23,438 nt of DNA from a virus: IMG/VR virus record IMGVR_UViG_3300032284_003122, positions 1-23,438 of that record; one strand, given 5' to 3'. A model generated the notes under the pieces. The model did no database searches. It saw only the letters and a list, made by a program, of their open reading frames with translations, and was not told the origin of the DNA. Both the position numbers and the translations under genes were made by a program. This document shows, piece after piece, positions 5,864 to 15,160 of this stretch (the stretch's first letter is position 1; each line of letters starts with the position of its first letter).

Positions 5864-6148
5864 ATGGCAACAATTACCAAAAAGAAAACTGAATCAAAGG
5901 TAGATGAGATTTTATCAAAACCGTATAAGTTAATACTTCACAATGATGATCACAATACGTTTGATTGGGTTATCACTTGTTTAATGAAAGTTTGTAAACA
6001 CGAGCAAGAGCAAGCAACTCAGTGTGCTCACATAGTTCACTATAACGGATTTTGTGATGTTAAATATGGTGATATAGAAACAATCTCAACAATGAAAGAT
6101 AAACTAAGAAGTGCTGGACTAAGTGCGACAATGGAAGCAAATAATTAA
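5864..6148 (+). CDS. clpS: ClpS, adaptor of the ClpAP/ClpCP protease (N-degron recognition)
   Basis: The 94-residue protein matches ClpS over its full length after a charged N-terminal tail. H-N-D-D at residues 26-29 corresponds to the Asn-Asp-Asp loop that binds the free N terminus of N-degron substrates. V-H-Y-N-G with His59 corresponds to the conserved substrate-contact histidine. At the position of the E. coli Met40 gatekeeper there is Phe33. The N-T-F-D-W-V-I, K-V-C-K-H and Q-C-A-H-I-V-H segments are close to Bacteroidota ClpS proteins as I know them, which points to capture from such a host. Known ClpS delivers proteins with bulky N-terminal residues to ClpA; a phage copy could redirect host proteolysis. 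It ends at a strong terminator. Confidence 0.9.
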   Translation: MATITKKKTESKVDEILSKPYKLILHNDDHNTFDWVITCLMKVCKHEQEQATQCAHIVHYNGFCDVKYGDIETISTMKDKLRSAGLSATMEANN

Positions 6149-11717: not shown

Positions 11718-14600
11718 ATGAAGTATCTTAGTAATAGAGATGAATTCCTTAAAAGAAGTATAATCAAGATCGATGAACATATATCTATAAAAGATGATTC
11801 AATCAATGAAGAAATTGAATCCGGTCCATTTGCCAATGATATACCTTGGAATGACTCATTACTTGGTAGATTGATAAACTCTGCCATCAGAAAAGCAAAA
11901 ATAGGTGCAAATCTAGTTAGAATAAAGCAAGTTGGTAAAAGATTGCAAGAAGCTTTTGATGATTTATTAAGTAGATCATACGCATCTGGCTTATCAAAAG
12001 AAGATAAAGCTAGATATAATAAAGTTTCACTATATGCTTTTTTAGAAGAGTTAAAGAATTCAGTTGAGGAACTTGAAGGTAAAAGTGATGATGAGACACT
12101 TAAAGAAATAGAAGGGTTAAAAAATCTAACCGATACCGCTATCAAAGAAATTACAGACTTTGAAAATAAAACACCAGCGGATGAATTAACAATTGATAAG
12201 AGTGATTTAGATAAATTAATAAAAGAATTAAAAAAGTTTAGAGAATTCTTAAATGAGTTTAAAAAAGGAGAAGAAGAAAAGCCTGTAGAAACAGAAGGTG
12301 AAGAAAAAAGTGAAGAAAAGCCAGAGGTATCAAGTGAAACATCTGAATTATTTTACAAAACATCAGTTACTTTACTAAAATCTGTTATTTCTTTATGCGA
12401 TGTTGTAAAAGATGGTAAAATAACTTATCCAAAATCAACAACTCAGGCTAAACCAAATGAAAAAGAAACAACTAAAGTTGATACAAAAGAACCTGTAAAA
12501 GCAGAGGTAACAACTGAAAGATTTTTTTATGAAAATGAGTCTCTTCCAATATTTGAGTCAGAGTTAGCATCAAATGAAACTAAAGCTATTAATGCTTGGA
12601 AAAAAGTTGAAAGTGCTTACACTAAGTCAGGTATTTCTAATATGGTTACTAGAATTCAAGATCTTATTAAGAACTCTGAATCTGGTGAGAATGCAGAACT
12701 ATATAAAAAAACTATAAGTAAAATAGGATACCAAGTAGTTATGAATGAGCAAACTATTGGTAAGAACCTATTAAGCCATGATGATCTTGTTAAAGAAGAA
12801 TTAAATCCAGATTCTGATAATGACATACCTAAGGCTATTTCATTATTTGGTAATGTTATTTTAGCATTCAAAGGTGATATGGGCTTATCAGCTCAACTAA
12901 CAGAAGCTAATCAACCTATTAAAGATTTTATTAGTTCATATGATAAATTAAAAGAACTATTACCAAAGTTAAAATCGTCTCAAGAAACTAAAGATTCCAA
13001 TACTGAATCAGAGGTTAAAACAGAAGATGATATTGAATTAGGTAAGCATTATAAATACACCAATAAAAAAGGCGAGACTAAAGATGTTATTGCAGTAGAT
13101 AAGGATAAAGTTGTTTATCCAGGTGATGATAAAAAATATCTAACATCTGATGATAAAAAAGGAAAAGAATTAGCTAATAAAGACGTTTTATCAGTAGCAA
13201 CTGACAAATCAATTGGAACATTTGCTGTTAGACCCAATCAATTAAAAAAAGAATCTAAATCAATATTTAGATATTTTGACTTTATAAATGAAGCTGACGA
13301 GGATGTAGATTCTAAAGAGGAAAAAATAACAACCGATAAAACTGAAGAGGTTTCAGAACCAACTCAAATGATCATGTCTCAAAAGATAAAAGATTATTGG
13401 GATAAAAATGTAGATATCAAAAGCTTTGTAATGACAAAGAGTGAAATGGAAAAAGCTCGTATAGCATTTGACAAGGCTAGTAAAAGCGATTCTATTGTGA
13501 TACAAGGAATGGATCCTATTATTGAAATAGTTAAAGTTTTTAATAGAGCATATAAATTACATACAACTCAAGTTATACCAACAGGCAGAAAAGGAGGAAT
13601 GGTATCTAATAAAACATTTAGAGAGTACACAACATTTGGCGGTGGGTCACCAGACAGCGCAGGTTCTACTGGTGGGCCATATAGAAATAATGCGATTTTT
13701 GACCAATGGGAAGATGCGGTTCTTAATATTAAAAAAGATACAAAATATCAAAAAATATTTAGACAAGAGACTACACTAAAAACCGAAGAAGGTAACATAA
13801 TAAAAGATGCGGGTAAGAACCTTTTAAGATTCATGAATGATATGATTGATGGTGATACCTTATACAAAACTGATAAATCCGGGAAAGGCAAACAAGCCGA
13901 ATTTATTGAAAAATACTTTGGTACATCCGTAGATAACGAAAAGTTGGCTATCGGTGGAGAAAAAGAAATGAATGAAAATGGTAAAATTGCAGATTCTATA
14001 AAGGTTAGAAACTTAAATTTTACAGAAAAACCATTAAAGTTTGATAACTACGAACAATTAAAAGGTACTTTCTTTGCAACAAGTACAAATGACAATAAAG
14101 TATTATATTTCTACATACAAGACTTGCAAAATGGTGAGTTATACATCTCATATTGTAGAAGTATGTACTTTTTTGACAAATACATAACAGAATCGGGAAA
14201 TTCTATTAAGTTAGAAGGTGGTAATCTACCATTTGGTTTAAATAAAAATCAAAAAAATAAAGATGGTAAGGAATTTATAATATCAGCTTTTAGAATAAAA
14301 CCAGAATCTCTTATTGATAAAGATGGTAAGTTTAAGTTAAGTGGTAAATATTCAATTAAAGCCATAACTAAGTTTGATGAGGGTAAAAATAAAGCAGCAT
14401 CTTCAAAATTATCAGAAGAGGCTGAAATTGATATTAAGTCAATATTTACTTTACAGGAAAAATTAAAAGATAAAGAGGGTAAAGATATAGTTAGGAGATT
14501 TGTATTAACAAATGCCTCAAATTCAATAACAAAAAATGGCGGCTTTGTAAATATTGCAGCATCAAACGATGCTAACAAAACATCAATAGTTAAAAAATAA
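11718..14600 (+). CDS. Large charged head-protein candidate with internal protease-like sites (possible polyprotein)
   Basis: The 960-residue product is rich in Lys, Glu and Asp, with long helical and coiled-coil parts and Lys/Glu linkers near residues 175-210, 235-265 and 410-440. No domain was recognised. Three sites look like prohead protease cuts ([LI]-x-E): S-I-N-E-E-I-E-S near residues 28-35, L-P-I-F-E-S-E near 276-282 and Y-F-D-F-I-N-E-A-D near 519-526. The last is preceded by S-I-F-R, so that together it mirrors the N terminus of the next gene's product (L-K-T-Y-K-L-F-I-E-E-A-D). Cutting there would give pieces of about 30, 250, 245 and 435 residues. It is coupled to the next gene by TAATG. 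A role as internal or core head protein is inferred; a tail or baseplate protein is also possible. Confidence 0.65.
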   Translation: MKYLSNRDEFLKRSIIKIDEHISIKDDSINEEIESGPFANDIPWNDSLLGRLINSAIRKAKIGANLVRIKQVGKRLQEAFDDLLSRSYASGLSKEDKARYNKVSLYAFLEELKNSVEELEGKSDDETLKEIEGLKNLTDTAIKEITDFENKTPADELTIDKSDLDKLIKELKKFREFLNEFKKGEEEKPVETEGEEKSEEKPEVSSETSELFYKTSVTLLKSVISLCDVVKDGKITYPKSTTQAKPNEKETTKVDTKEPVKAEVTTERFFYENESLPIFESELASNETKAINAWKKVESAYTKSGISNMVTRIQDLIKNSESGENAELYKKTISKIGYQVVMNEQTIGKNLLSHDDLVKEELNPDSDNDIPKAISLFGNVILAFKGDMGLSAQLTEANQPIKDFISSYDKLKELLPKLKSSQETKDSNTESEVKTEDDIELGKHYKYTNKKGETKDVIAVDKDKVVYPGDDKKYLTSDDKKGKELANKDVLSVATDKSIGTFAVRPNQLKKESKSIFRYFDFINEADEDVDSKEEKITTDKTEEVSEPTQMIMSQKIKDYWDKNVDIKSFVMTKSEMEKARIAFDKASKSDSIVIQGMDPIIEIVKVFNRAYKLHTTQVIPTGRKGGMVSNKTFREYTTFGGGSPDSAGSTGGPYRNNAIFDQWEDAVLNIKKDTKYQKIFRQETTLKTEEGNIIKDAGKNLLRFMNDMIDGDTLYKTDKSGKGKQAEFIEKYFGTSVDNEKLAIGGEKEMNENGKIADSIKVRNLNFTEKPLKFDNYEQLKGTFFATSTNDNKVLYFYIQDLQNGELYISYCRSMYFFDKYITESGNSIKLEGGNLPFGLNKNQKNKDGKEFIISAFRIKPESLIDKDGKFKLSGKYSIKAITKFDEGKNKAASSKLSEEAEIDIKSIFTLQEKLKDKEGKDIVRRFVLTNASNSITKNGGFVNIAASNDANKTSIVKK

Positions 14601-15160
14601 TGAGAACTCTTAAAACATATAAACTCTTTATAGAAGAAGCAGACTTTGATATTAATCTAACAGACGAACCTGATGTTAAAATGGCTAAAGATGAGTTATC
14701 AATAACTCAAAAGCAATTGGCTGAATACAAAACAAAGAAACCTTTGTTAGATAATGCTTATCTTAAAATAAAATCAGATGCCGACTTACAAATAAAGGTT
14801 GATGAGATTATAGGCAAGGCTGATGAAAAAACACCTAAAAATCCTTTTTTAGTTGAATACCTACATGTTGCTAATCTTAAAAGAAAAGTTGATAATCTTC
14901 AAAATAGTATTGCTGATGATAAAGTTAAAAAAGATGATTTTAGTAGTCAACTACAAAGTATAACCGACGACAGCACAAAACAATCTGTAAATGGTAAAAT
15001 CACTGATATAACCAACAGAATATCGACAAATACGACAACTATAGCTTCTTTAGTTAAAGATATAGCAGAAGCACAAAAGTCATTAGATGATAAAATGAAA
15101 GATGTAGAAAAAAATATGATGGATAATATCAAGAAGATGTCAAGTCAGACATCAAAATAG
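14600..15160 (+). CDS. Coiled-coil protein with strong T4-like capsid-targeting N terminus
   Basis: The N terminus M-R-T-L-K-T-Y-K-L-F-I-E-E-A-D is the closest match in the window to the T4 capsid-targeting sequence (MKTYQEFIAEA), including the I-E-E/A junction expected for the prohead protease. The remaining 170 residues are almost entirely helical and charged, with coiled-coil heptads (residues 30-60, 90-120 and 140-180) and no enzyme motif. Its start overlaps the stop of the large gene by one base, so the two are made together. In T4 the internal proteins packed with the DNA are small, basic or helical and carry this signal. I infer an internal head or core role; scaffolding is an alternative. 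Confidence 0.7.
   Translation: MRTLKTYKLFIEEADFDINLTDEPDVKMAKDELSITQKQLAEYKTKKPLLDNAYLKIKSDADLQIKVDEIIGKADEKTPKNPFLVEYLHVANLKRKVDNLQNSIADDKVKKDDFSSQLQSITDDSTKQSVNGKITDITNRISTNTTTIASLVKDIAEAQKSLDDKMKDVEKNMMDNIKKMSSQTSK

Follow-up and report, generated by a model that had tools for sequence, protein, structure and literature searches.

The window, i.e. the whole stretch of 23,438 nucleotides analysed here (IMG/VR virus record IMGVR_UViG_3300032284_003122), encodes a 960-residue protein, P0001, which is probably a precursor that is targeted to the phage head and cut by the prohead protease, as judged by comparison of sequences. Flexible linkers with a T4-type targeting and cut signal connect its three folded parts, and P0001 would therefore probably be packed as one precursor and cut in the head. 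Cutting of this kind had been put forward in the original prediction; conserved boundary motifs, disordered linkers, the T4 pattern and the maturation site of the major capsid protein (MCP) all speak in its favour. Targeting sequences have been known in the form of N-terminal propeptides; neither an internal one nor a head polyprotein was found described in the open-access literature searched.

Layout of the putative precursor gene and its neighbour

The gene and its parts are located in the window as follows (a slash within a sequence marks a predicted cut):

11718..14600, + strand: P0001, 960-residue precursor consisting of an N-terminal targeting region and parts A, B and C (ORF translation)
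11718..11756, + strand: N-terminal targeting-like sequence MKYLSNRDEFLKR (start common to nearly all relatives)
11799..11813, + strand: predicted cut site 1, SINE31/E (conservation of [ILV]xE, likeness to the MCP, low pLDDT)
11811..12539, + strand: part A, residues 32-274, helical, with a disordered linker at its end (AlphaFold2; conserved in 95 loci)
12537..12560, + strand: predicted double cut site 2, E274/SLPIFE280/S (E280 invariant in alignment A1; linker pLDDT < 50)
12558..13253, + strand: part B, residues 281-512, with a helical core (289-422), a small beta stretch and a disordered tail (AlphaFold2)
13251..13295, + strand: internal capsid-targeting-like sequence (site 3) with predicted cuts on both flanks, E512/SKSIFRYFDFINE525/A (conservation; disordered setting)
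13293..14597, + strand: part C, residues 526-960, with a beta-rich C-terminal half (alignment A4; AlphaFold2)
14600..15160, + strand: partner gene, 186 residues, with N-terminal targeting sequence MRTLKTYKLFIEE/AD (motif score; synteny)

The gene lies between the terminase and sheath genes and adjoins the tail sheath; matches to phage families were obtained for the window's terminase, sheath and tube. P0001 and ten relatives were searched against Pfam and PHROGs, with no match for P0001. A LysM-like end of part A appeared in one relative only, with E = 0.033 and under the Pfam cut-off, and is not claimed here. The N-terminal sequence of P0001 is of the same type as the N terminus of the tRNA synthetase, MKYIKTRNRFLAES, and the product of the partner gene starts with MRTLKTYKLFIEEAD. 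The partner gene stands directly downstream in almost all relatives; it was not called in L122 and L123, and one gene intervenes in L108 and L109.

The motifs of P0001 occupy residues 28-32 (SINEE), 274-281 (ESLPIFES) and 512-527 (ESKSIFRYFDFINEAD). All three motifs pointed out originally are thus present, and the cut residues proposed from them (E31, E280 and E525) were numbered correctly in the ORF translation, although two of the starts had been misplaced: the second motif begins at residue 276 and not 278, the third at 515 and not 523. The likeness claimed between site 3 and the start of the adjacent gene also held, YFDFINE/A and YKLFIEE/A having the same residues at the same spacing.

A full AlphaFold2 model was built from a 13-sequence alignment, and its mean pLDDT of 63 makes the domain detail rough. 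Folded parts were predicted between disordered linkers, and all three sites fall in regions with pLDDT < 50, which comprise residues 1-47, 239-282 apart from a single residue, and the greater part of 447-549. Inside the last of these, a helix was predicted at 511-522, on the internal element. Part C modelled alone from 33 sequences reached a mean pLDDT of 81.6. No fold match at E <= 0.001 was obtained for the full model against PDB and BFVD, nor for part C against PDB.

Conservation of the sites among relatives

Searches of viral contigs yielded 17 sequences related to P0001 as a whole and 95 related to part A, 80 of the latter being kept; the relatives of part A comprised 63 distinct sequences, 56 of them complete, and two further relatives came from huge-phage records. 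From these, 39 representatives were chosen by thinning on k-mer overlap. The near-twin genome G001, a 476,236-base contig that holds the best match to P0001 (99% identical), was used for the phage-wide tests. The phage group is known here from metagenomes only.

At site 1, a conserved Trp is preceded, at a distance of 7-17 residues, by [ILV]xE in 38 of the 38 evaluable representatives, a count that leaves out L131 (read from a later start); the linker preceding it varies in length. At site 3, the element RYFDFINE/A has all four targeting and processing residues of T4 IPIII at equal spacing (Y..F I.E/A), and E512, S513, Y519, F522 and E525 are invariant in alignment A1. Residues 513-525 carry the CTS pattern (Y/F at i, F at i+3, then L/I-x-E), as do residues 1-13 of the adjacent gene's product; the copy at 513-525 is internal rather than an N-terminal propeptide, N-terminal copies being found in P0001 and in the adjacent gene. 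The full T4-type element, taken as aromatic-x-x-F/Y followed a few residues on by hydrophobic-x-E (or F-L-E) and then mostly by A, S, N or Q, was found at site 3 in 35 of 39 representatives, a count that permits F/Y at i+3, though the surrounding linkers turn over. The site is absent from one clade (L105-L107) and from L113 and L124. Two of the four remaining representatives, L081 and L097, have lost Y..F and keep the bare cut motif (ESMNE/A and ILE/A, correspondingly), while in L105 and L113 nothing is kept. The original prediction had named unconserved internal sites in homologs as grounds for its refutation, and this comparison of 39 diverse relatives did not refute it.

A strict regex for CTS plus cut matched 33 of 39 real sequences, against a mean of 2.7 among shuffles (maximum 7 in 300), and a looser one 34 of 39 against a mean of 9.1 (maximum 17). 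Both were drafted after the site sequences of the homologs had been seen, so that these counts describe a pattern already seen and are no blind test. Within P0001 alone the score of site 3 was rejected as evidence: among the internal positions of all proteins of the phage it ranks within the top 2.3e-4, with about 0.2 expected per 960 residues, and is not significant. Helix 171-180 was likewise discarded as a fourth site; it outscores site 3, yet its Glu is unconserved, which shows that the score alone misleads. Site 3 stands out from chance because it is conserved in homologs at the same domain boundary.

Site 2 is more variable. E280 is invariant in alignment A1, and in other relatives many have ESxxFE/ and others a full targeting sequence. 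The short motif alone did no better than shuffles (38 of 39 real, 34 of 39 shuffled); [IL]xE is common in Glu-rich chains. It should be added that all four representatives without the full element at site 3 have an element of targeting type at site 2: LLKYDEFKRINE/G in L081, MLKYDQFIMLE/A in L097, VFRFNDFVNYLTE/A in L105 and DSYQSFCENVISKE/Q, the loosest of the four, in L113. The two sites thus apparently compensate, an element occurring at site 2 where it is lost at site 3, with both sites in the 39-sequence set assigned by eye after the sequences had been seen. Part B, between them, has diverged strongly or has been replaced in many relatives.

Split-gene relatives were sought and none was found, all 56 complete homologs being single ORFs, which goes against the suggestion that homologs might exist as separate genes. 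Since no relative is split at these points, an origin of P0001 by gene fusion is proposed by analogy only. L071/L016, considered as a natural split, was judged to be a frame break within part B and may be a sequencing error. Using hmmsearch with parts A and C at a looser threshold and with positive controls included, no homolog other than the controls was detected at E < 1 in the stretches of T4, PTm1, pT24, Lak-A1, LR756500, LR756501 and LR756504 that were searched.

The analogy for fusion comes from an unrelated basic protein (MPARSKTQQRLMGQAYAYK...), which ends at a targeting-like sequence in L232 and L233 and runs on past it in G001 (45894). In L234, L238 and L240 this protein has an internal MKHLTTFEAF or MKYIKTFEAY with an apparent old start Met.

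Targeting motif, protease and capsid protein in the phage proteome

A weight matrix was iterated on the N termini of the G001 proteome, with the P0001 gene and its neighbour left out, and converged on [LIM]-K-x-[FY]-x-x-F. At a score >= 8, 119-121 of 601 G001 proteins, the product of the adjacent gene included, carry the motif at the N terminus, against about 4 expected from the internal rate. A cut-like motif follows within 15 residues after the core in 81 of 119 tagged proteins (68% vs a background of 36%). The tagged proteins include an RNA ligase, a CCA-adding-type enzyme, a tRNA synthetase and an Acb1 anti-CBASS homolog; a few of the hits (e.g. a primase-like one) may be due to chance. 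The matrix had been trained on G001 before other phages were scored, with T4 ipIII already known as a model. Counted over the fetched stretches only, ipIII, ipII and ipI were the top three of 39 ORFs in T4. Over such stretches, none of 113 ORFs was hit in Tenacibaculum phage PTm1, a related phage, and 24 of 140, 13 of 97 and 7 of 109 ORFs were hit in LR756502, LR756501 and LR756504, correspondingly.

Other parts of the window also deserve a mention. Positions 1-616, at the window end, differ from the near-twin genome and hold an ORF that starts with the targeting-like MKHIKLFEDYNRLFE. Two ORFs, at 664-990 and 1078-1752, correspond to a single 362-residue ORF of the near-twin genome (44757-45845). 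By eye, the stretch 5864-6148 looks similar to a ClpS adaptor.

A gp21-type protease is encoded in the near-twin genome, outside the window: a 720-residue protease/scaffold homolog (phrog_207, E = 1.2e-31; PF03420 weak) at L032:5876-8035 (G001 59876-62038). Linked to it are repeats of 14 residues with Y-[LI]-A-E, whose copy number ranges from 4 to 12 across 80 relatives, and this repeat motif resembles the T4 targeting sequence YQEFIAE. The MCP propeptide of G001 ends with SINE/NAY, [SQ]INE/NAY being found in 80 of 80 relatives, and its INE/N aligns by eye with the LTE/A maturation site of T4 gp23. P0001 thus shares its L/I-x-E sites with the maturation site of the MCP.

Going by the similarity to T4 IPIII, the N-terminal region and residues 513-525 would dock P0001 to the scaffold core during prohead assembly, with the protease-linked repeats as a possible docking partner for the targeting elements. 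Once recruited, P0001 would be enclosed in the prohead. Cuts by the prohead protease would follow the Glu of L/I-x-E or L/I-x-x-E-like motifs, at E31, around 274-280, at E512 and at E525, and would set parts A, B and C free, along with short targeting peptides.

Alternative readings and comparison with known systems

The internal elements could do no more than dock P0001 to the scaffold at several points while the chain stays uncut, or is cut at its N terminus only, and serves as one multi-domain internal protein. The targeting Y and F are indeed conserved as well as the cut residues, and T4 IPIII keeps targeting apart from processing (PMC9026906); however, L081 and L097 retain the cut motif of site 3 after the loss of Y..F, and E512-S513, lying upstream of the element, are invariant in alignment A1, and we hold this reading to be unlikely. 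A role as core or scaffold protein of the kind of T4 gp22, gp67 and gp68, where many pieces mostly leave the head and the sites serve removal, appears quite improbable. Part C, a conserved and fairly confidently folded unit of about 415 residues, would be hard to expel, and the protease gene of this phage already has a scaffold-like repeat region attached to it, despite the Glu-rich linkers of P0001, its 186-residue head-tagged neighbour and the cutting of T4 core proteins to multiple fragments (PMC9026906).

The gene adjoins the tail sheath, and the score of site 3 is unremarkable within P0001 alone, as would be expected if the motifs were chance resemblances in Glu-rich linkers and the protein belonged to the tail or neck. 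Against this stand the strict matches in 33 of 39 homologs vs the shuffle mean of 2.7, the position of the element on a domain boundary and the apparent compensation of sites 2 and 3, and chance, already disfavoured, is left with a very slim probability. The preferred reading of P0001 as a precursor cut in the head also has a broader form: huge phages of the clade may tag about a fifth of their genes (some 120 proteins, RNA ligase, CCA-adding-type enzyme, tRNA synthetase and anti-CBASS homolog among them) with T4-type head-targeting sequences, and one or more of their proteins may be a true head polyprotein, with an excisable internal targeting sequence between products that the prohead protease sets free within the capsid. 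To this form we give somewhat less than an even chance.

An internal, doubly cut targeting copy, if true, would allow several head proteins to be delivered at fixed stoichiometry from one gene. Moreover, the motif singles out about 120 proteins as testable candidates for carriage in the head of a huge phage.

Multiple cutting is already known, since T4 core proteins and propeptides of giant phages are cut repeatedly (PMC9026906, PMC10052503). T4 gp22, gp67 and gp68 resemble the predicted sites of P0001 in having several gp21 cuts per chain (PMC9026906); their pieces are mostly removed, whereas the sites of P0001 separate conserved folded parts. According to the excerpts consulted of PMC5694885 and PMC10052503, ejection proteins of phiKZ and SPN3US, which have long propeptides, belong to the head proteins that are cut after Glu, some of them more than once, by a protease similar to T4 gp21. 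The cuts given there lie at A-x-E or S/A/G-x-E, unlike the motifs of P0001; those identified in SPN3US remove N-terminal propeptides, and its protease is cut at its own C terminus. The same excerpts describe no internal targeting sequence, in which P0001 also differs.

Among huge phages, LR756502 and LR745206 (642 and 635 kb) encode single-ORF homologs of 797 and 794 residues with sites 1 and 3. Part B is shorter in both than in P0001, and site 2 is ambiguous in LR745206, whose site 3, KILKTFESFVSVILE/S, resembles N termini seen in other tagged genes. A close parallel in sequence is offered by T4 IPI, IPII and IPIII. In IPIII, with the N terminus MKTYQEFIAEA, residues 4 and 7 are used for targeting and residues 8 and 10 for processing, and gp21 cuts after L/I-x-E (PMC9026906). 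P0001 and the product of its adjacent gene follow these proteins in residue spacing (YQEFIAE/A vs YFDFINE/A and YKLFIEE/A). The T4 proteins are small and have a single N-terminal propeptide, whereas P0001 is a 960-residue chain in which a copy is also internal, with predicted cuts on both flanks.
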